This document shows, piece after piece, positions 251 to 7,609 of a DNA stretch of 7,609 nucleotides. The notes under the pieces were generated by a model, which saw nothing but the letters and a program-made list of their open reading frames with translations, was not told the origin of the DNA and searched no databases. Position 1 is the stretch's first letter. Each line of letters begins with the position of its first letter. This stretch comes from Chloroflexota bacterium. Its GTDB lineage: Bacteria > Chloroflexota > Dehalococcoidia > Bin125. Position numbers and translations under genes: made by a program. The stretch is taken from assembly GCA_027296805.1 (NCBI GenBank), contig JAPUIR010000420.1, positions 1 to 7,609 of the forward strand. Direction: 5' to 3'.

Positions 251-1381
251 TCACGCAAGTAGGTGATCGAGGGCTTGAGCCGCGACGCGCTGCTGGCCTA
301 GCAGGAGTCCGCCATAGCGGCGCTCGGTGAAGTACGAGTCCTTGTGGCCAAGCCGCTTCGCGATTGTGTAGCGGTCTTGACCCGCAAAGATCCAATGGGT
401 CGTCGCCGTATGCCGAAGGCAATGAAAATCTACTCCCGTGCCGGCCAACCCCGCCCTGTCGACGACAGCTAGATACCCCCTGTAGAACGCGCGACGTACC
501 CAGGGCGTCCCGATGCGAGACGGGAAGACCAGGCCGTGGTCTTGCCAGACCGGCCCCGTGGCGAGGCGCAGCTCACTGAGTTCAAGGCGGTGCCGGCGCA
601 GGGATGCCAAGGTGACCGACGAGAGTTCAACGTCACGCTGGGCCTGGGCGGATTTCGTCCCGGCCACATGCACGAGGGAGCGATCCCAATCGACATCTTC
701 CCATCTCAAGGAAAGAAGCTCGCCCTGGCGGGCGCCGGTGGCGAGCGCGATGCGGATCACTGACGCGAACCGCGTGCCCGCACCGGCCGCCAGCAAGCGT
801 CTGATCTCGCCATCGTCCAGGACCCGGTCCTTCGGCTGGGCTGCTTGTCTCGGCGCAGTCACCCCCTCAACGGGGTTGAAGGGGATCAGCCGCCGGGCCA
901 CCGCCTCCCGCATCGCCTTCCGCAGAATGTGGAGGTGCTTGTGAATCGACGCGGCGCTCAGGGGATGGGCGGCTGTCGACCCCTCGCCGCTGACCCAGCT
1001 GTCCCGCAGGGCCGCAACGTGGTCGTAGCGCAGGTCGGGTAAGGCGAGATGTCCAATTGTCGGGATCAAATGGCGCTCGATCACCCCCTCGTACCGTTCG
1101 TGGGAGCGGGCGTTGATCCCGCCGTGACGATGTTGGGCATCGACCCAACCGCGGAGGAACTGGGCGACGGTCTGAGATTTGACATCGATCGCGAGGCCCG
1201 CGCCGTGCTGCTGACGGGCTTCGTCCAGCGCTTGTTGCGCATCCCGTTTCGTTCCGGTCACGGTTCGGTTGAGGCGGCGCCGAGTGCCGGTGATTGGGTC
1301 AATCCCGAGGCGCAGGCGGATAAGCCACTTCCGCTTGCCACGCGGGGTAATCGATCCTTGGCCGTAGTCACGCTTCGTCAT
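251..1381 (-). CDS. int: Tyrosine recombinase (phage-type integrase)
   Basis: Site-specific recombinase of the lambda-integrase family, expected to integrate and excise the element at the adjacent tRNA-Glu. Numbered from the ATG at 1381 (376 aa), the N-terminus (about 10-60) looks like the small arm-binding domain, about 70-160 is the SAM-like core-binding domain, and 185-370 is catalytic. The catalytic residues are all visible: Arg218 (ATGARQGEL), Lys243 (GTKSAQ), His320 and Arg323 (HCLRHT), His346 (LGHKD) and the nucleophile Tyr356 (ERRYGG). I chose the ATG at 1381 because GAAAGG lies 7 nt upstream. A GTG at 1396 would add five residues. The start overlaps the end of the upstream minus-strand gene by 14 nt, suggesting translational coupling. 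It faces the tRNA convergently. Confidence 0.95.
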   Translation of the reverse strand: MTKRDYGQGSITPRGKRKWLIRLRLGIDPITGTRRRLNRTVTGTKRDAQQALDEARQQHGAGLAIDVKSQTVAQFLRGWVDAQHRHGGINARSHERYEGVIERHLIPTIGHLALPDLRYDHVAALRDSWVSGEGSTAAHPLSAASIHKHLHILRKAMREAVARRLIPFNPVEGVTAPRQAAQPKDRVLDDGEIRRLLAAGAGTRFASVIRIALATGARQGELLSLRWEDVDWDRSLVHVAGTKSAQAQRDVELSSVTLASLRRHRLELSELRLATGPVWQDHGLVFPSRIGTPWVRRAFYRGYLAVVDRAGLAGTGVDFHCLRHTATTHWIFAGQDRYTIAKRLGHKDSYFTERRYGGLLLGQQRVAAQALDHLLA

Positions 1382-2285
1382 TGGAACGCCTTTCACGTTG
1401 AGAGAGGGCCCGCCCTTCGCGCTTCATTCGAGACCGGCGTGAGCGGCAGGCGTCGCTGCACGTCAGCTTTTGCCGTCTGGATGCTCCGGGGGCGATAACG
1501 AGCCAACGACCGCAGTTCCCGGCGCAAGATCGATACTCCCGGTCCTCGTCGACGGCACGAGCGATCTGCAGCCACATCGCACCGGCGAGGTGGCGCGGTC
1601 GGATACGGAGCCGCCCATCGCCGCCGTAGCGGCCGAAGCCGGCCCAAGTCGACGTTCTGAGATGAAGATCCAGGACCTCGCGGAGCATCCACCGGGTGTG
1701 CTGAGCGCTCGCCCGTCGATCTGATTCCACCTCGGAATCTGCACCCTTGGATCGGCTCAGGAGTTGCCAGTCGTCGAACAGCCTGAACGTTTCCACCATC
1801 AGGACATGGATCTCTTGCCAGCTCTCAAGTGTCTCGCCCGGCGTGTAGGGACTCAGCAGTTCGGTCGCTCGCGCAATCGCGACGAGTGCATCGGCACCAG
1901 TGGCGTGGGGTGTGTCGTGCTGAGGTGATTGTCCCTCGCGTAGGACGGAGTTCGCCCAGGGGTCGAGGTGCCCGTATCGGCTCGCGAAGTCTTGAACGGT
2001 CGACTCCGTCAGCGGGGAGCTCAGTGTCGCGAACTCCTTCGCCGCTCCCTGCATTTCGTGATCGGCTAGTGGGTCGATGGTTCGCCAAATCGCTTCGGGC
2101 CCCAACACGGGGACATCGCTGACCAGGAAGCGGCCCGCTCCCCCGTCCCGCTTGATTCCGTCGCGCCAGCGGTACCCGCCGGGAGCGACCATGAGGCCTG
2201 AATTGAAGGGCCAAATCGAGAGGTCATGGCGCTCTAGCGTGACCACTTCTGACACACTTTCTCGTCGTAAACCGGTTGAGATCAT
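1368..2285 (-). CDS. Uncharacterised protein with C-terminal zinc-finger motif, possible element regulator
   Basis: I do not recognise a named family with certainty. With the ATG at 2285 the protein has 305 aa. The middle holds an FASRYG segment (about 100-105) and helical stretches rich in Trp and Leu. The C-terminus carries four cysteines in a treble-clef-like pattern, Cys254-x3-Cys258 and Cys276-x3-Cys280, followed by a very basic tail (CRSRRSRMKRE). This resembles the CGNR-type zinc finger found in some bacterial regulators, so nucleic-acid binding is an inference. The gene is divergent from the excisionase operon and overlaps the integrase start by 14 nt. In phage satellites this slot often holds a repressor or regulator, but no classic HTH is visible. 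The start is uncertain: TTG at 2318 (316 aa) and GTG at 2255 are alternatives, and none has a strong ribosome-binding site. Confidence 0.75.
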   Translation of the reverse strand: MISTGLRRESVSEVVTLERHDLSIWPFNSGLMVAPGGYRWRDGIKRDGGAGRFLVSDVPVLGPEAIWRTIDPLADHEMQGAAKEFATLSSPLTESTVQDFASRYGHLDPWANSVLREGQSPQHDTPHATGADALVAIARATELLSPYTPGETLESWQEIHVLMVETFRLFDDWQLLSRSKGADSEVESDRRASAQHTRWMLREVLDLHLRTSTWAGFGRYGGDGRLRIRPRHLAGAMWLQIARAVDEDREYRSCAGNCGRWLVIAPGASRRQKLTCSDACRSRRSRMKREGRALSQRERRSNDEA

Positions 2286-2304
2286 GGAAACAGTAGCGGA
2301 TACT
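2276..2304 (+). promoter_or_regulatory. Promoter of the xis-primase operon
   Basis: TTGAGA (2276-2281, 5 of 6 to the sigma-70 -35 consensus) and GATACT (2299-2304, 4 of 6 to the -10) are exactly 17 bp apart. Transcription would start near 2311, giving a leader of about 42 nt before the excisionase ATG at 2353. The site lies inside the divergent intergenic region and overlaps possible starts of the leftward gene, so the two directions could be co-regulated. Confidence 0.55.
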
Positions 2305-2305
2305 G
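2291..2305. promoter_or_regulatory. Palindrome overlapping the -10 box, candidate operator
   Basis: CAGTA (2291-2295) and TACTG (2301-2305) form a perfect 5-bp inverted repeat around a 5-nt spacer. The palindrome covers the -10 hexamer of the predicted xis promoter, so a bound protein would block RNA polymerase. The half-sites are short, so the call rests on symmetry and position. Confidence 0.35.
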
Positions 2306-2316
2306 GGACCGGATGC

Positions 2317-2340
2317 AATGAGAAATCACCGAATGAGAAA
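2317..2340. repeat. Direct repeat in the leader of the excisionase gene
   Basis: The 9-mer aatgagaaa occurs at 2317-2325 and 2332-2340, a period of 15 bp. It lies just after the predicted transcription start. The second copy runs into the ribosome-binding site AAAGGA (2338-2343). This stretch is clearly richer in A and T than its surroundings. It may be a binding site for the excisionase-like protein or another regulator. Confidence 0.35.
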
Positions 2341-2352
2341 GGACCCCGGCAA

Positions 2353-2529
2353 ATGGTGCAGACCGCCGCCTCTCGCGTCTTGACCGTTCAAGAAACGGCG
2401 GACGCCCTTGGCATATCACTCAACAGCGCGTACGAGGGAATCCGGAGGGGAGACATTCCCCATCTCCGAATTGGGCGCCGGATCGTCGTACCGATGGAGG
2501 CTCTCGAACGCCTTCTCGCCACAGCATGA
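2353..2529 (+). CDS. xis: Excisionase-like MerR-type winged-helix DNA-binding protein
   Basis: A 58-aa protein that is almost entirely one DNA-binding domain of the excisionase/MerR-like HTH_17 type. The HTH spans TVQETADALGISLNSAYEGI (11-30) and is followed by the wing RRGDIPHLRIGRRIVVP (31-47), the hallmark of this family. Such proteins act as recombination directionality factors with the integrase, and often also as transcription regulators like AlpA in phage satellites. The ATG at 2353 is preceded by AAAGGA with 9 nt spacing. The upstream in-frame ATG at 2284 falls between the promoter hexamers, so it is unlikely to be used. The stop overlaps the next start by 4 nt (ATGA). Confidence 0.85.
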   Translation: MVQTAASRVLTVQETADALGISLNSAYEGIRRGDIPHLRIGRRIVVPMEALERLLATA

Positions 2530-2795
2530 CTAGAGACGAAGAAGCCGCCGGTGGAAGGGGGTCCGCCGTCGCGGTTAAAGAAGAAAGCCGCCCCGGGCAC
2601 AGGGGGCGACTACCGACCGCTAAGACGGTCACTAATTGCAACACTGAATCCAGCAGCGACCCCGAACTCGCCGACGGGCTGGCGTGGCTGCATGTGATCG
2701 TGCGCGACGGGCAGCGCGATGCGGATCTCCGTCGCTTGCTTCTTGCCGTGCTTGATTACGTGCGGCGTGCCCAGAATCTGGTTGCGCCCCAGTGA
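2526..2795 (+). CDS. Hypothetical 89-aa protein between excisionase and primase
   Basis: Function unknown. The start overlaps the excisionase stop in an ATGA junction, and its own stop overlaps the primase GTG in a GTGA junction. The gene therefore sits tightly inside one translationally coupled operon, which is the main evidence that it is real. The first 45 residues are polar and probably disordered. Residues about 48-84 (from ELADGLAWLHVIV to LLLAVLDYVRRA) look helical and amphipathic, possibly a protein-binding segment. No signal peptide, membrane segment or metal motif is visible, and no Shine-Dalgarno sequence precedes the ATG. It may be an accessory factor for the primase or excisionase, but nothing in the sequence shows this. 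Confidence 0.65.
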   Translation: MTRDEEAAGGRGSAVAVKEESRPGHRGRLPTAKTVTNCNTESSSDPELADGLAWLHVIVRDGQRDADLRRLLLAVLDYVRRAQNLVAPQ

Positions 2796-5350
2796 CCGCC
2801 CCCGTGCAGCCCCCGATCACCGACAACATCCCCGCCGAGATCCGCGAGAGCCGGCAGTGCGTGGGCTGGGTGCTCCACAAGCGGGACGGCGATCCGAAAC
2901 CAACGAAGCTGCCCGTCAACGTAGCGACCGGCGAGCTGGCGTCGTCCACGGACAGCGCGACGTGGAGCACGTTCGCTGCCGTAATAGCGGCCGTGAAGGC
3001 GGGCGAGGTTGACGGCGCTGGCTTCGTGTTCACCGCCGAAGACGACTACGTCGGCATCGACTTGGACCGGTGCATCAACGTCGGGACAGGCGAGATCACG
3101 GACCAGGCGATGGCCATCGTCAACTCGATCAGCAGCTACACCGAGGTGTCGCCCTCGGGCACCGGCTTGCACATTATCGCTAAGGGGATCTTGCCGCCGG
3201 GCCGCCGCCGCAAGGGGGCGATCGAGGCGTACGCCGAAGGCCGCTACTTCACCATGAGTGGCAACGTGCTCCCTAGCACGCCGCGCACGATCGAGGAGCG
3301 CAGCGCCGAGCTGGCCAGGTTCCACGACACCTACCTCGCCGATCCAGAGCCGAAGCCAACCGATCCCATGCCGCGCAGCAGTGGCAAGCTTGATGATCTG
3401 GAACTGATCGAACATGCCCGCGCCGCAAAGAACGGCACCAAGTTCGCCAAGTTGTTCCACGGCGACCACTCCGGTTACGAATCGCAGTCCGAGGCGGACC
3501 AGGCGTTGGTCAGCCTGATCAGTTTTTGGACGCAAGACCCCGCACAGATCGACCGCGTCTTCCGCCAGAGCGGCCTCGCGCGGGCCAAGTGGCTCGACCG
3601 TGAGGACTATCGCGACGCGACGATCGCGACGGCGTTGCGGGGGCGGATCGATGTCTATTCCCCAGACAACGGGGGCGGACCAGTCCGATTCGCCCGACGT
3701 CCTAATCCCGTCGCTGGGGGGGCGTTTCGGGATGGAGACGATGGAGTAGCTGACGTCAGTGGAGTCGCTGAACAGTACGATCGCCGCCATCTCACCGATC
3801 TCGGCAACGCCCTTCGCTTCGTCGACGCCCATCACAAAGACCTTCGCTACTGCGGCCCTCTCCGCGGCTGGTTCTGCTTCGACGGCCGGCGCTGGGAGCT
3901 GGACACCGCGGGCGAAGTGCAGCGCCGCGCCATCGCGACGATCGCGGACATGGAGCGGGAGGCGGCGGATCTCCTGGAGCGGGGCGACGAAGGCCACAAG
4001 GCGCTGGCGGCCCATGTCTTGAAGTCGGAGGCGGAGCCGCGTATCCGGGCGATGCTCACGCTGGCAGAGAACGACAGCCGCGTCGCGGTGGCCGTCGACG
4101 CCTTCGATCAGGACGAACACCTGCTCAACCTCGAGAACGGCACCATCGATCTCGCGACCGGCACCCTCCGCCCGCACCGCAGTGAGGATCTGATCACCCG
4201 CCTCGCCCCCGTCGTTTACGACCCGGCCGCCATCGCGCCTCAGTTTCAGGCCTTCCTCCGCACCGTCCTCCCGCAGAACGACGATCTGATCGCCTATCTC
4301 CAGCGGGCGACGGGCTACAGCTTGTTGGGCTCCACCCAGGAGCAGTGCTTCTTCCTCCTCTACGGCACCGGCGCCAACGGCAAGTCGACGTGGATGGAGA
4401 CGATCCACGCCATGCTCGGCGACTACGCCATGGCGACCCACCCGCAAACGTTTCTGCAGCGCAGCGGCGACGCCATTCCCAACGACATTGCCCGACTGCG
4501 CGCCGCGCGCTTCATCTCGACCCCGGAGCTGGATCTGGGCAAGCGCCTGAACGAGACCCTGCTCAAATCCTTCTGCGGCGGCGACACCGTCTCCGCCCGC
4601 TTCATGCGGCGGGAGTTCTTCGAGTTCCAACCTAAGGGCACGATCTTCATCGGCGCCAACCAGAAACCGGAGATCCGGGGCGTGGAGAAGGCGATCTGGC
4701 GACGGCTGAAGCTGATTCCCTTCACCGTCTCCATCCCGCCCGAGGAGCAGGACAAGAGCTTGCTCGCCAAGCTCCGGGCCGAAGCCCCGGGCATCCTGAA
4801 TTGGGCCCTGGCGGGCTGTCTGGCCTGGCAGCAAGACGGCCTCGGCAGCGCCCCGGACGTTGAAGCCGCCACCGCAGCCTACCGCGAGGAGATGGACCCG
4901 CTCGCCGCGTTCATCGACGAGCGCTGCTTGATCGCCACGGACGTCAAGGTGTCCGTCAAGGATCTGTTCCGTCACTACAAGGAGTGGGCCGAGACCAACA
5001 GCGAGAAACCGCTCGGCAAGATGCAGTTCAACGCCGCGGTCACCGGCCGGGACATCGCCAAGGTGAAGTCGACAATCTGGTGGTGGCATGGGATCACCCT
5101 CCACCACGGACAAAAGGACAATTCAGATCATGAATCCGGGGTAAGTTTTCAACCGCGCGTAATGGAGGTTAACCCGGAAACCGCGATCCCAATTGTCCGA
5201 ATGTCCGAACCCGGCGAGTTTTGTGCCTGCGGAGGGCTGGTGGATCGCTACACCCCGGAGGGCGAACCCGTCTGTGCCGCGCACGTTCCCCGCACCCGTC
5301 CAGATACGGCCCTCTCCACCACCAGCACCGACTCGGAGACGTCGTCGTGA
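2792..5350 (+). CDS. Primase-polymerase fused to SF3 helicase (phage/plasmid replication protein)
   Basis: An 852-aa replication initiator. The N-terminus (about 1-180) is an archaeo-eukaryotic primase-polymerase resembling the phage NrS-1 type. The metal-binding DxD is Asp90-Leu-Asp92 in VGIDLDRCI, the nucleotide-binding motif SGTGLH lies at 122-127, and a third motif region is GRYFTMSG (150-157). A helical PriCT-like linker (about 200-285) follows. From about 325 the protein is of the P4/D5 type. The SF3 helicase has Walker A GTGANGKST (525-533), an acidic Walker B-like STPELD (576-581), a sensor-type IGANQKP with Asn623, and the arginine pair in WRRLK (637-638). A winged-helix-like region (about 700-770) comes before a C-terminal zinc-hairpin pattern: Cys811, Cys813, Cys828, His831. 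It should prime and unwind the element's origin. The GTG start overlaps the previous stop by 4 nt. Confidence 0.93.
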   Translation: MTAPVQPPITDNIPAEIRESRQCVGWVLHKRDGDPKPTKLPVNVATGELASSTDSATWSTFAAVIAAVKAGEVDGAGFVFTAEDDYVGIDLDRCINVGTGEITDQAMAIVNSISSYTEVSPSGTGLHIIAKGILPPGRRRKGAIEAYAEGRYFTMSGNVLPSTPRTIEERSAELARFHDTYLADPEPKPTDPMPRSSGKLDDLELIEHARAAKNGTKFAKLFHGDHSGYESQSEADQALVSLISFWTQDPAQIDRVFRQSGLARAKWLDREDYRDATIATALRGRIDVYSPDNGGGPVRFARRPNPVAGGAFRDGDDGVADVSGVAEQYDRRHLTDLGNALRFVDAHHKDLRYCGPLRGWFCFDGRRWELDTAGEVQRRAIATIADMEREAADLLERGDEGHKALAAHVLKSEAEPRIRAMLTLAENDSRVAVAVDAFDQDEHLLNLENGTIDLATGTLRPHRSEDLITRLAPVVYDPAAIAPQFQAFLRTVLPQNDDLIAYLQRATGYSLLGSTQEQCFFLLYGTGANGKSTWMETIHAMLGDYAMATHPQTFLQRSGDAIPNDIARLRAARFISTPELDLGKRLNETLLKSFCGGDTVSARFMRREFFEFQPKGTIFIGANQKPEIRGVEKAIWRRLKLIPFTVSIPPEEQDKSLLAKLRAEAPGILNWALAGCLAWQQDGLGSAPDVEAATAAYREEMDPLAAFIDERCLIATDVKVSVKDLFRHYKEWAETNSEKPLGKMQFNAAVTGRDIAKVKSTIWWWHGITLHHGQKDNSDHESGVSFQPRVMEVNPETAIPIVRMSEPGEFCACGGLVDRYTPEGEPVCAAHVPRTRPDTALSTTSTDSETSS

Positions 5351-5366
5351 GCCCGATCCAAGGCTT

Positions 5367-5384
5367 TTGGAAGGGGGATTCCAA
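5367..5384. repeat. Inverted repeat after the primase gene
   Basis: TTGGAA (5367-5372) and TTCCAA (5379-5384) form a perfect 6-bp stem around a G-rich 6-nt loop, 16 nt past the primase stop. There is no T-run on either strand, so it is not a classic terminator. It sits in the 77-nt gap between convergent primase and PII genes, where termination in both directions would be expected. Confidence 0.35.
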
Positions 5385-5427
5385 TAGACGCCACGGGGCG
5401 GGGCTCAGGGCCGAGGCGGGTCCCGGG

Positions 5428-5781
5428 CTAGAGGGTGTCGTTGCCCCGCTCGCCCGTCCGGATGCTGATCGCGTCCTCGACGTCACTGACGAAGATCAGG
5501 CCATCGCCCAGGTCGCCCACCGCGCCGTGCTCGCGGATCACCGCGATCACGTTCTCTACATTCGATTCGGAGACCACGGTCTCCAGCTTGACCTTGGGCA
5601 GCAGGTCCACAAGGACCGTCTCCCCGGCGCGGCCGGCCCGAATCTCCTCTGGCGGCATTTCTCCTCGTCCGACGACGTTGCTGACGTTCAGCCCCGTGAC
5701 CCCGGCCTCGCTCAGCGCGATCTTCACCGGCTCCAACCGCTCCGGCCGGATCAACGCCTCGACCCGTTTCATCGAACTCAT
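5428..5781 (-). CDS. PII-family signalling protein with non-canonical T-loop
   Basis: A 117-aa protein that aligns end to end with GlnB/GlnK, the trimeric regulators that sense ATP/ADP and 2-oxoglutarate and control nitrogen uptake and assimilation. Clear family marks are KRVEALIRPERLEPVKIAL at the start, GVTGLNV (27-33), VDLLPKVKLE (58-67), GDGLIFV (92-98) and IRTGE (107-111). By hand alignment to E. coli GlnB several functional residues differ. The T-loop (about 40-57) has no Tyr51 uridylylation site. Positions 38-39 (Arg-Gln) are Glu-Met. Lys90 is Leu, and Arg101 of the C-loop is Ser. Nucleotide or 2-oxoglutarate binding may therefore be altered. The ATG at 5781 is chosen because AGGGGG lies 4 nt upstream. 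The in-frame ATG three codons later is possible. No amt or glutamine synthetase gene is nearby. Confidence 0.88.
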   Translation of the reverse strand: MSSMKRVEALIRPERLEPVKIALSEAGVTGLNVSNVVGRGEMPPEEIRAGRAGETVLVDLLPKVKLETVVSESNVENVIAVIREHGAVGDLGDGLIFVSDVEDAISIRTGERGNDTL

Positions 5782-5810
5782 GGCACCCCCTTTGACGACG
5801 AACCGGCGCA

Positions 5811-5877
5811 GGGTACCCGAAGGCCACCCTCGGCGAGCAGGGTGCCCCGGCTCCCTCACCGCCACCACGGGGGCGGT
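5811..5877. other. Intergenic region with hairpins between lipoprotein and PII genes
   Basis: The 150-nt gap 5782-5931 holds three short inverted repeats and no convincing gene. They are the palindrome gggtaccc (5811-5818), a stem caccct/agggtg (5825-5830 with 5839-5844, 8-nt loop), and a stem accgcc/ggcggt (5858-5863 with 5872-5877). None is followed by a T-run. They may form structure in the PII leader or attenuate read-through from the lipoprotein gene. I could not find a good promoter for the PII gene here. Confidence 0.3.
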
Positions 5878-5931
5878 CCCGCGCGGCCTAGTGCTGCCGT
5901 GGAGGCCGTCCCCGCCAACATCTGGGCCGGG

Positions 5932-6411
5932 CTACTCGTCCGTGCAGTCGAAGACGAAGTCGATGTTCCGGTCCGCGGCGAGCTGCTGCAACGTGGCGCA
6001 GGCGCGATTGAACTCGCCGAAGGCGTCGTTAGCCTCGAAGAACGCGAGGACGTCGACGATCGTCTCGTCGGCGCCTGCTCCGCGGACACGCTCGAGATTG
6101 TCGATGACCGCGTCGATCGCCTCCACAAAGGCGTCGTGTGCGGCGGCCAGCTCCGTCGGAGCGGCGATCGCCGCGAGGTCGGCGCGCACGCCCACGAACA
6201 ACGCCTGAAAGAGTTCGAAGAAGGCCGGAACGGACTCGGGGTCGTCGGGAGACGGCTCGGGGATGGCGGCATCGCGTGCCTCAGCGTCGGCGCTCACGGC
6301 TTCGAGGGCGGCAAAGTACTCCCGATCGCTCAAGGTGTCGTCGCCGCCACACGCGGCCAGGAGCAGCGCAAGCGTGGCCAGGAGTCCGAGCAGGGCCAGG
6401 GATCGTCGCAT
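5932..6411 (-). CDS. Small secreted lipoprotein of unknown function
   Basis: A 159-aa protein with a textbook type II signal peptide: MRR, a hydrophobic Leu/Ala core (4-18) and lipobox LAAC with the lipidated Cys21. The mature part starts with an acidic GGDD linker and is Ala/Glu/Asp-rich and mostly helical, without a domain I recognise. Two further cysteines near the C-terminus (Cys138, Cys156) could form a disulfide outside the membrane. The ATG at 6411 has AGGGTG 5 nt upstream. It is in the same leftward run as the oxidoreductase (90-nt gap) and the PII gene (150-nt gap). I see no promoter of its own at a usable distance, so it may be transcribed from the oxidoreductase promoter. Confidence 0.85.
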   Translation of the reverse strand: MRRSLALLGLLATLALLLAACGGDDTLSDREYFAALEAVSADAEARDAAIPEPSPDDPESVPAFFELFQALFVGVRADLAAIAAPTELAAAHDAFVEAIDAVIDNLERVRGAGADETIVDVLAFFEANDAFGEFNRACATLQQLAADRNIDFVFDCTDE

Positions 6412-6446
6412 GGCGGCACCCTACCACCGGTCAACGACCCATCCCC

Positions 6447-6490
6447 CTCCAGGTTCCCGTCCTCGGGCCGCAGATCCTGCCGTCTTCACG
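6447..6490 (+). repeat. Imperfect direct repeat, copy A (downstream of the oxidoreductase gene)
   Basis: This 44-nt stretch recurs at 7137-7178. The first 27 nt differ at one base (6460 t, 7150 c). A linker of 6 versus 4 nt then leads to an identical 11-mer, ccgtcttcacg. The sequence can form two small hairpins, CCCG-tcct-CGGG (6456-6467) and GCCGT-cttc-ACGGC (6479-6492). It lies between the lipoprotein start and the oxidoreductase stop. Confidence 0.7.
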
Positions 6491-6501
6491 GCGCCGAGGG
6501 T

Positions 6502-6930
6502 TTAGCTGCGAGGTTGCAGAATCACAACCGGGATCTGCCGATCAGTCTTCTCTTCATATTCCGCGAATTGTGGGAAGCTCGCCTTCTGCGTCATCCAGAT
6601 CGTCTCGCGCTCCTGAGCGGAGGCGACGCGAGCCGTGACCTGAACGCTGTCGGCGCCGATCTCGACGGTCGTGTCGGCGTTCGCGACGAGATTGTGGTAC
6701 CAGGCGGGGTTCTTCGGGCCGCCCGCGTAGGAGGCGAAGATGGCGAACGCGTCCCCCACGGCCTGATACATCACCGGATGGAGGCGCGCTGCGCCACTCT
6801 TGGCCCCCGTACTGTGCAGCAGGAGGACGGGTCGGCCCTCGAACATTCCGCCGAGTTTGCCGTCATTGGCGCGGAACTCTTCGATGATCTGGGCGTTGAA
6901 CTCGTTCAGATTCTCGGGGACGGTGGTCAT
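6502..6930 (-). CDS. Deazaflavin (F420)-dependent nitroreductase-family oxidoreductase, Ddn-like
   Basis: A 142-aa protein of full family length. It matches the split-barrel Ddn group, named after the mycobacterial F420H2-dependent nitroreductase that activates pretomanid and reduces quinones. Family signatures in order are NEFNAQIIEEFRAN (9-22), LLLHSTGAKSG (36-46, cofactor phosphate region), HPVMY (51-55), FASYAGGPKNPAWYHNLVAN (65-84), VTAR (98-101), ERETIW (107-112), and FAEYEEKTDRQIPVVIL (122-138). The natural substrate cannot be told from sequence. The family implies that the host makes F420. The ATG at 6930 has a strong site, GAGGAG, about 5 nt upstream. A promoter candidate lies at 6979-7007. 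Short direct repeats flank the gene. Confidence 0.92.
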   Translation of the reverse strand: MTTVPENLNEFNAQIIEEFRANDGKLGGMFEGRPVLLLHSTGAKSGAARLHPVMYQAVGDAFAIFASYAGGPKNPAWYHNLVANADTTVEIGADSVQVTARVASAQERETIWMTQKASFPQFAEYEEKTDRQIPVVILQPRS

Positions 6931-6978
6931 TCGTTCTCCTCGGCGCGAGCGATCGGCTCAGTCTTCTGCTTGGGCGCT

Positions 6979-7007
6979 AGTATGCCGGGCCGCGAAAGGA
7001 CCAGCAA
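6979..7007 (-). promoter_or_regulatory. Promoter of the leftward oxidoreductase gene
   Basis: Read on the minus strand, TTGCTG (7007-7002, 4 of 6 to the -35 consensus) is followed after exactly 17 bp by CATACT (6984-6979, 4 of 6 to the -10). Transcription would start near 6972, giving a leader of about 40 nt before the ATG at 6930. It could also drive the lipoprotein gene. Confidence 0.5.
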
Positions 7008-7296
7008 TCCTGGGAAGATTTCGCGCCCCAACTCCGTGCCCGCGCACGTCTCCACACGGCCACCAGATACCGCCGGCGACCTCGCGGGTGTGACGGCCCC
7101 TAACCCGCCCCCAGCGCACATCTCCACGCCCGCCCTCTCCAGGTTCCCGCCCTCGGGCCGCAGCGCACCGTCTTCACGCAGGCCTGCAGCGCGCTCCTGG
7201 ATGGGACTGGCGGATCGAACCTTGTTTCAGAGCGTCCGGACCCACACAGACCGAACGCAGGCGCTGAGCGCCAACTGGAGGCCCGATGCGCCGTGA
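6982..7296 (+). CDS. Possible small ORF before terminase, uncertain
   Basis: This is the only coding candidate in the 355-nt stretch 6931-7285. An ATG at 6982 opens a 104-codon frame that ends 11 nt inside the terminase gene, an overlap common in phage operons. About 78% of codons end in G or C, which would suit a real gene in this genome. Against it, there is no ribosome-binding site, the product is mostly Pro, Ser, Arg and Ala without recognisable domains, and it overlaps the oxidoreductase promoter. The peptide holds two similar motifs 24 codons apart, PAHVSTR and PAHISTP, which resemble the primase C-terminus (AAHVPRTRPDTA). It may be a relic rather than a gene. Confidence 0.22.
   Translation: MPGRERTSNPGKISRPNSVPAHVSTRPPDTAGDLAGVTAPNPPPAHISTPALSRFPPSGRSAPSSRRPAARSWMGLADRTLFQSVRTHTDRTQALSANWRPDAP
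7137..7178 (+). repeat. Imperfect direct repeat, copy B (upstream of the oxidoreductase gene)
   Basis: This is the second copy of the repeat at 6447-6490, in the same orientation and 690 nt away at its left end. The hairpin CCCG-ccct-CGGG is kept, with the one base change falling in its loop. The second hairpin is reduced to about 3-4 bp. A 10-nt palindrome, gcaggcctgc (7178-7187), follows directly. Confidence 0.7.
7260..7272. promoter_or_regulatory. Palindrome just before the terminase ribosome-binding site
   Basis: GGCGCT-g-AGCGCC is a perfect 6-bp inverted repeat with a one-base centre, ending 4 nt before the GGAG (7277-7280) that serves the terminase gene. It could be an operator or a translation-level hairpin. 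Short GC palindromes are common in such DNA, so position is the main argument. Confidence 0.25.
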
Positions 7297-7609
7297 GGGC
7301 AGCTCGAAGCCCGCGCTGACGGCGCGGCGGCAGCGCTTCGTCGAGGAATTCGGCATTGATCACAACGCCACCCGCGCGGCGACCGCCGCCGAGTATTCCG
7401 CCAAGACGGCCCGCTTCCAAGCCTCGCGGTTGTTGACGAAGGTTGCGGTCCTCGACGCGTTGGAACGTTCCCGCGCGGCGATGTCCGAGCGCACGCACCT
7501 CACCACCGATCTCGTCGTGGCCGAGTTGCTCGTCATCGCGCGGGACCCCGAGAACCCCGCGTCCGCACGTGTGGCGGCCTATGCGTTGCTGGCGAAGCAC
7601 ACCGGGGGA
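7286..7609 (+). CDS. terS: Phage terminase small subunit, 3' end outside the window
   Basis: The first 108 codons of an open frame that runs off the right edge. It matches the common terminase small-subunit family: LTARRQRFVEEFGIDHNATRAA, then AEYSAKTARFQASRLL, then a helical stretch with VLDALERSRA. In related proteins this N-terminal part is the HTH that recognises the packaging site, and the later part forms the oligomer that hands DNA to the large subunit. The ATG at 7286 is preceded by GGAG with 5 nt spacing. It is the only packaging gene in the window. In satellites terS commonly sits after the replication gene and redirects the helper's packaging, while in a prophage the large subunit would come next. 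Confidence 0.88.
   Translation, partial: MRREGSSKPALTARRQRFVEEFGIDHNATRAATAAEYSAKTARFQASRLLTKVAVLDALERSRAAMSERTHLTTDLVVAELLVIARDPENPASARVAAYALLAKHTGG

Follow-up and report, generated by a model that had tools for sequence, protein, structure and literature searches.

Does the DNA beside a tRNA-Glu gene in a Chloroflexota bacterium of the class Dehalococcoidia (GenBank assembly GCA_027296805.1) belong to a phage satellite, an element that would bring its own integration and replication genes and its own terminase small subunit (TerS) and would be packaged by a helper phage? The stretch analysed, hereafter the window, is the complete contig C358 (7,609 bp), and its right edge falls inside terS. 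A preliminary description had proposed the layout of a phage-inducible chromosomal island (PICI). From sequence comparison, we tentatively regard the window, with a confidence slightly short of even, as the left portion of a phage satellite resembling a PICI. This reading is favoured by the gene order, the compactness of the element, bounded relatives in the phylum, and TerS loci that lack a terminase large subunit (TerL); the element can be called laid out like a PICI, not a PICI. Phage satellites are described as widespread in Pseudomonadota and Bacillota and as present in other major groups such as Actinomycetota (PMC10690885), and no paper on satellites in Chloroflexota turned up in open-access literature listings. 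A TerS satellite in this lineage, if true, would extend the range of satellites and would show metabolic regulators as cargo.

Gene order beside the tRNA-Glu gene

PICIs are described as carrying an integrase and a master regulator in one direction and xis with a replication module in the other (PMC6092414). The window shows this gene organisation, with a leftward protein whose role as regulator is predicted: int and the putative regulator point leftward, xis, a small open reading frame (ORF) and a primase-helicase gene (pri) point rightward, and terS lies further right on the pri strand (Table 1). Coordinates and family matches bore out the preliminary description for both gene groups and for the adjoining tRNA-Glu(CTC). 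Its placement of terS after the primase was correct as to strand but not as to adjacency, as three leftward genes, omitted from that description, intervene and terS is incomplete. The quoted matches of int, xis, pri, the P-II gene, the reductase gene and terS lie far beyond chance.

Table 1 Positions of features in the window and of repeat-bounded islands in other genomes of the phylum
Feature	Sequence	Positions	Strand	Length	Evidence or remark
Stretch shared with C100	C358	1..141	+	141 bp	100% identity with end of contig C100 (15,524 bp), own genome
tRNA-Glu (CTC)	C358	59..135	+		ARAGORN and Rfam; likely attachment site
Terminator-like hairpin 3' of tRNA	C358	145..169	+		Pattern match only
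Tyrosine integrase (int)	C358	251..1396	-		Phage_integrase PF00589 4.4e-22; phrog_1 9.4e-67
Putative regulator, CGNR-like C-terminus	C358	1368..2318	-	295 aa (database gene call P0001)	
Excisionase-type HTH protein (xis)	C358	2353..2529	+		HTH_17 4.1e-13; TIGR01764 over cut-off
Small ORF	C358	2526..2795	+	89 aa	Family-less
P4-type primase-helicase (pri)	C358	2792..5350	+		phrog_1829 2.4e-202; D5_N 1.9e-29; DUF5906, TIGR01613 over cut-off
P-II nitrogen regulator	C358	5428..5784	-		PF00543 1.2e-21 (scanned as 5428-5868); cargo or host gene
Lipoprotein-like ORF	C358	5932..6411	-	159 aa	Read by eye from N-terminal sequence
F420H2-dependent quinone reductase / deazaflavin nitroreductase (DDN-type)	C358	6502..6930	-		PF04075 1.2e-36; TIGR00026 over cut-off
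Terminase small subunit (terS), 5' part	C358	7286..7609	+		Terminase_2 PF03592 1.7e-18; phrog_51 4.1e-20
Island L127	G042	2387-13820		11.4 kb	tRNA-Arg, exact 42-bp repeats
Island L128	G063	7889-14806		6.9 kb	Exact 17-bp repeats, beside tRNA-Glu(CTC)
Island L209	G602	2227-11696		9.4 kb	tRNA-Gly, exact 47-bp repeats
Island L219	G386 (C26)	5900-13225		7.3 kb	tRNA-Leu, exact 46-bp repeats
Island L222	G311	8447-15801		7.3 kb	tRNA-Arg, exact 63-64 bp repeats

A terS homologue is present in some PICIs only; the window has one, which would be part of the element. Two traits set the window apart from known PICIs: the regulator is CGNR-like, with no recognised Stl/Rpr or AlpA, and pri is separated from terS by candidate cargo that runs in the other direction. 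PICIs measure about 12-15 kb; for the window's element the minimum would be about 7.4 kb, provided that terS is part of it. PICIs have a replication origin of characteristic layout near pri; around the window's pri, only weak short repeats were found. Capsid-forming PICIs (cf-PICIs) have capsid, portal and terminase genes of their own; of these, terS is visible up to the contig end. No structural gene was found among the nine window ORFs scanned apart from terS, within which the contig ends. A second point of comparison is the PICMIs of Vibrionaceae, described as minimal satellites of integrase, regulator and primase with a search model that uses PF00589, PF12728 and PF19263 (PMC10803314). All three families are present in the window; that model, which seeks an integrase, an AlpA-type HTH protein and a primase with DUF5906, also needs DUF3987 (PF13148) and fis as neighbour (PMC10803314), whereas PF13148 was not found in the window, which adjoins tRNA-Glu. 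Packaging of PICMIs was shown by experiment, and the six genes named for PICMI115 in PMC10803314 do not include terS.

No family over a curated cut-off was found for the regulator ORF, and Pfam zf-CGNR gave no match to it. Its residues 241-301 align with a zf-CGNR-like protein of an element in G386 described below (29.5% identity, E 1.7e-5, a single pair). No close homologue was found; the three proteins that matched besides itself are distant (42-44% identity over about a fifth of the length), and six of 293 other genomes of the class matched in the last part of the protein only. Integrase matches at 1e-20 were present in 11 of 60 relatives' genomes, the host's family not among them, and a single-sequence query of viral contigs returned three distant relatives. 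The start of xis was set by choice at the ATG at 2353, the family scans having used 2365-2529, and the small ORF at 2526-2795 had no match in Pfam, PHROGs or NCBIfam.

The distance from int to pri is 1.4 kb; it was under 2.5 kb in three of the 16 viral contigs in which both genes were found (distances measured by hand). This compact early region argues against a temperate prophage of the ordinary kind, truncated where the contig stops, in which int, repressor, xis, an early primase operon and a cargo island would be followed past 7609 by the remainder of terS, by terL and by late genes. Such a prophage is nevertheless a real possibility, which we place at well under an even chance.

Repeat-bounded primase islands in the phylum

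Flanking repeats were sought at 12 primase loci, of which five were positive (Table 1) and seven were without (L208, L213, L221, L136, L130, L217 and L215). All five bounded islands carry an integrase and a related D5-type primase, and the TerL family phrog_2 had no match on their contigs in a search of 32 genomes that relied, genome-wide, on phrog_2 alone. Bounded relatives of 6.9-11.4 kb on contigs lacking this TerL family speak against a prophage in the window. Gene calls in the loci came from a simple longest-ORF script that can miss small genes, and the ORFs scanned against PHROGs were chosen ones (six of L127, four of L128, three of L209, eight of L219 and seven of L222).

As a candidate satellite, the island L219 surpasses the window. 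Besides a primase and an integrase, it encodes an Arc-like repressor, a TerS-like protein and a zf-CGNR-like protein; the last scored 2.4e-4, short of the Pfam cut-off, and resembles the regulator in the window. The TerS-like gene matched phrog_2538 (2.2e-8) and Terminase_2 (9.3e-4, below cut-off), with HTH_Tnp_1_2 over cut-off; the phrog_2 matches of G386 fall on other contigs (C27 and C13). L219 shares with the window the D5-type primase, the tyrosine integrase, a zf-CGNR-like protein divergent from the primase operon, a TerS-like gene, a tRNA target and the phylum. Unlike in the window, its integrase stands at the far end beside terS, its best PHROGs differ (primase 1156 vs 1829, TerS 2538 vs 51), and P-II and F420 cargo is absent.

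L128 is similar to the window in its int beside tRNA-Glu, an xis-type gene, a related C-terminal primase half and opposite-strand cargo next to the primase. It differs in that a separate ORF, with a weak primase match only, makes up the N-terminal half of the primase, its 17-bp repeat lies outside the tRNA, no TerS was found, and the cargo includes a PIN-domain-like protein, which scored just below cut-off. A PICI is described as using a specific attachment site that prophages never use; in G063, the same tRNA-Glu(CTC) as in the window adjoins L128, an element without a phrog_2 TerL match on its contig. In both L127 and L128, ORFs opposite in strand to pri come after it, as in the window; the cargo of L127 includes lipoprotein-like ORFs (by eye), one of which, with a collagen-like stretch, matches tail-fibre families. 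The five islands, L219 above all, are closed elements on which the satellite question can be tested independently of the window.

If the window's element is a satellite, its integrase would have inserted it at the 3' end of tRNA-Glu, and the leftward regulator would keep the divergent xis-orf-pri operon silent until a helper phage relieves the block. Int and Xis would then excise the element as a circle, the primase-helicase would replicate that circle, and the element's TerS would dock on the helper's TerL, by which element DNA would be packed into helper particles. The P-II, lipoprotein and F420 reductase genes would be carried along as cargo. A broader proposal, which we hold to be doubtful, is that there is an apparently undescribed lineage of compact, tRNA-integrated TerS satellites with CGNR-like zinc-finger regulators, in an F420-using, probably Chloroflexota lineage, ferrying P-II and F420 redox genes in helper particles; L219 would be its first complete member.

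TerS and primase relatives and the prophage alternative

terS holds 108 codons in the window, about 26 fewer than its close homologues of 134-135 aa. Three full-length homologues were found at 87-88% identity, plus one fragment at 93%. TerS relatives occur in six of 294 genomes of the class, the window's own included, and no terS match was found in 19 sampled genomes of the host's family. The window TerS had no match among phage records, and as a single-sequence query of viral contigs it confirmed no relative, which counts against a prophage, though the TerS profile A2 did recover relatives in viral contigs at up to 56% identity. Because TerS has close homologues and the regulator none, TerS may differ in its history from the int-regulator end.

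TerL was absent from the 2.0-4.9 kb fetched after terS in four of the six other TerS loci of the class (C356 of the window's own genome, L120, L122 and L124), or in three of five if the doubtful L120 is dropped. The remaining two run into phage head genes, L121 into TerL and portal and L123 into a head-tail adaptor. L120, in genome G271, was rejected as an element with terS at its end: a sigma factor and a kinase further along look like those of another phylum, so the contig may be contamination. L124 (4399-6656 on G154:C146) is a cluster of xis, an ORF, terS and an HNH gene between host-type genes, with no TerL nearby; no integrase was recognised in it and no 12-bp flanking repeat was found. 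The own genome, G000 (453 contigs, 79.6% complete, 5.5% contamination), has three Terminase_2 matches, on C358, on C356 and, as a fragment, on C263. On the 3.8-kb C356, where TerL was not found, a 408-aa protein (L119, 2027-3253) carries the Terminase_2 domain behind an N-terminal extension with HGGHSTGPRT. The short TerS-like fragment on C263 (L228, 57-200) lies at the contig start, directly preceded by a short tandem repeat; neighbouring ORFs look, by eye, like ABC transporters. phrog_2 had no match in G000, a further point against a prophage, although phrog_2 stands for a single TerL family and the assembly lacks a fifth of the genome.

Primase relatives at 1e-60 or better were found in 21 of 400 phylum genomes, and at 1e-3 in 14 of the 100 genomes of the relatives search, the own genome counted in both. 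In its own 90% cluster, for which the longest listed contig measures 4,132 bp, the primase is joined by a second member; outside that cluster, the best relative is 47% identical. Carriers of related primases are named as Chloroflexia and also, among the named matches of the homologue comparison, as Anaerolineae, Deltaproteobacteria, Bryobacteraceae and Acidobacteria. As a single query in viral contigs, the primase confirmed no relative. In the phylum, a relative in G635 (L218) is directly followed by TerL, and one in G373 (L213) lies 1.3 kb before a tape-measure-like gene (Pfam TMP_3 below cut-off); both favour a prophage. As relatives were found in islands and in phage-like elements, the primase family serves both alike. 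On a 9-kb viral contig (L066, IMG/VR 3300021960_012466), genes for a major head protein, portal and TerS lie on one strand and face those for an integrase and a primase on the opposite one, a layout like that of a capsid-forming satellite.

Several results weigh against a satellite. In 74 of the 80 best viral loci (of at least 529 confirmed, with at most 8 kb taken on each side), a TerL gene on the TerS strand came no more than 3 kb after TerS, a ratio that overstates the case for a phage here because the contigs had been chosen as viral. The TerL profile used for this count was made from ORFs beside terS in those loci, and it recognises the TerL of L121 (9.4e-41), so named by PHROGs. The pairing of pri with this TerS family is rare: it occurs once in these 80 loci, in L234, a phage with TerL, and in none of the 80 best primase viral loci (of at least 580 confirmed, at most 10 kb each side). 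Besides the own genome, 20 phylum genomes have the primase, and Terminase_2 matched in none of them; they include G386, where the model missed the TerS-like gene. The 76,046-bp contig of P0008, one of the full-length TerS homologues, was not among the 120 primase matches listed of 756, in a homologue comparison that scored only the 7,997 candidates sharing most words. Only one of the five bounded relatives has a TerS-like gene, and that one is below the Terminase_2 and over the HTH_Tnp_1_2 cut-off. Among phage records, the best full-length primase matches were to phages such as phi105 and PSA. The complete phage phi105 (NC_048631) has int and regulators leftward, a same-family primase rightward, and the reverse-strand pair hicBA before the cos end, in an order similar to that of the window; it differs in its COG1961 (Pin)-type recombinase, its longer early region and its complete phage genome. 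SaPI cargo is described at the 3' end or between int and stl, unlike the position between pri and terS seen here (PMC6092414). A prophage or an unrelated terS is favoured by phi105, by the TerS-TerL neighbourhood in viruses and by the broader distribution of TerS. The PICI reading of the preliminary description keeps its gene order and its phylum relatives without a phrog_2 TerL match, one with a TerS-like gene, but that order has a near counterpart in phi105, and in viral contigs TerS usually lies beside TerL.

The four bounded relatives in which profile searches found no TerS-like gene suit a further alternative, in which a capsid-less integrative element (int, regulator, xis, orf, pri and perhaps the cargo) moves without phages and terS is an orphan, part of a neighbouring element, or chromosomal. 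We consider this unlikely. Orphan TerS-like genes do exist among host-type genes, one (L122, 15708-16172 on G292:C11) lying between fumC-like and nucleotidyltransferase-like genes (by eye), and the two additional Terminase_2 matches of the own genome, on C356 and C263, point the same way. Against it, terS was unmatched in the 19 sampled host-family genomes, and the lipoprotein-like ORF had weak local matches only (E 1e-4 to 9e-4), in three of those 19, which were its only matches among 60 other genomes.

Likely attachment site and the genes between pri and terS

The window shares its first 141 bp with contig C100, which terminates exactly at the last base of this stretch. An overlap of this kind is the typical trace of a short-read assembler at a graph fork, which makes C358 most probably the continuation of C100; the fork would then sit six bases past tRNA-Glu. 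Two gene families upstream on C100 keep the same position in other genomes of the host family. From the adjoining int and the contig joint, the tRNA-Glu gene is likely the attachment site. Among 29 relatives compared, none matched far past the tRNA; the alignment of L043 (G001) extends to position 174, through a hairpin. Such a break close to the tRNA is compatible with attachment at its 3' end, short of proof.

No 11-mer was common to positions 50-300 and 301-7609 in either direction, and a second direct-repeat search found no copy of the tRNA region in the window. When the tRNA 3' half and positions 136-252 were aligned with gaps, 81 and 98 of 100 shuffles, respectively, reached the observed forward score; these controls preserve base composition only. 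No copy of the tRNA 3' end was found in the window before the P-II gene or before terS. As 301-7609 holds no copy of the tRNA region, the right end would lie past 7609 and terS inside the element, if the tRNA-Glu end was used; this fails if the right attachment site has decayed. The lack of such a repeat before terS argues against a capsid-less element that ends there, whereas exact repeats of 17 bp or more persist in all five bounded relatives. The sequence to the right of terS is absent, as the window is the entire contig. In the own genome, no further near-identical stretch continued window positions 5201-7600, the only match being one of 70% to a P-II gene on C8.

Codon-usage scores were 0.26-0.39 for the P-II, lipoprotein-like, reductase, terS and pri genes and -0.10 to 0.16 for int, the regulator, xis and the small ORF. 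The host ORFs scored 0.18-0.42 in 11 of 12 cases and -0.001 in one, with a model built from the same 12 chosen ORFs. This usage is compatible with cargo from related hosts or with host genes. It lends some support to a capsid-less element, since the three leftward genes and terS are host-like and the int end less so, although pri is host-like too. A host-gene boundary between primase and terS, named in the preliminary description as evidence that would contradict a satellite, finds a counterpart in the host-like codon usage of the intervening genes, but no copy of the attachment site marks one. The shift in codon usage along the contig and the fragmented, partly contaminated assembly could also reflect a chimaeric contig in which an integrative element was joined to an unrelated stretch with terS. 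We consider a chimaera very improbable, as GC content is even (0.60-0.69 in 500-base windows) and, the primase being already host-like, there is no single codon-usage step at the start of the cargo.

The remark in the preliminary description that the lineage uses F420 holds, because a relative of the reductase is present in all 19 sampled members of the host's family; the best relative of the window's reductase (61%) is in G006. The lipoprotein-like ORF had no Pfam family over cut-off. The P-II protein is 60% identical to that of the own genome which adjoins an amtB-like gene on C8. It has no tyrosine in the T-loop region, the site of uridylylation in enteric P-II, and it retains the C-terminal RTGERG stretch. 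Host synteny of the P-II and DDN-type genes was considered and rejected: the two lie near each other in the five regions compared, but there they are accompanied by an amtB-like gene and are arranged differently, and the DDN paralogues are other ones. A 31-bp direct repeat (94%; 6443-6473 and 7133-7163) flanks the F420 reductase gene and could be a trace of that gene's insertion.

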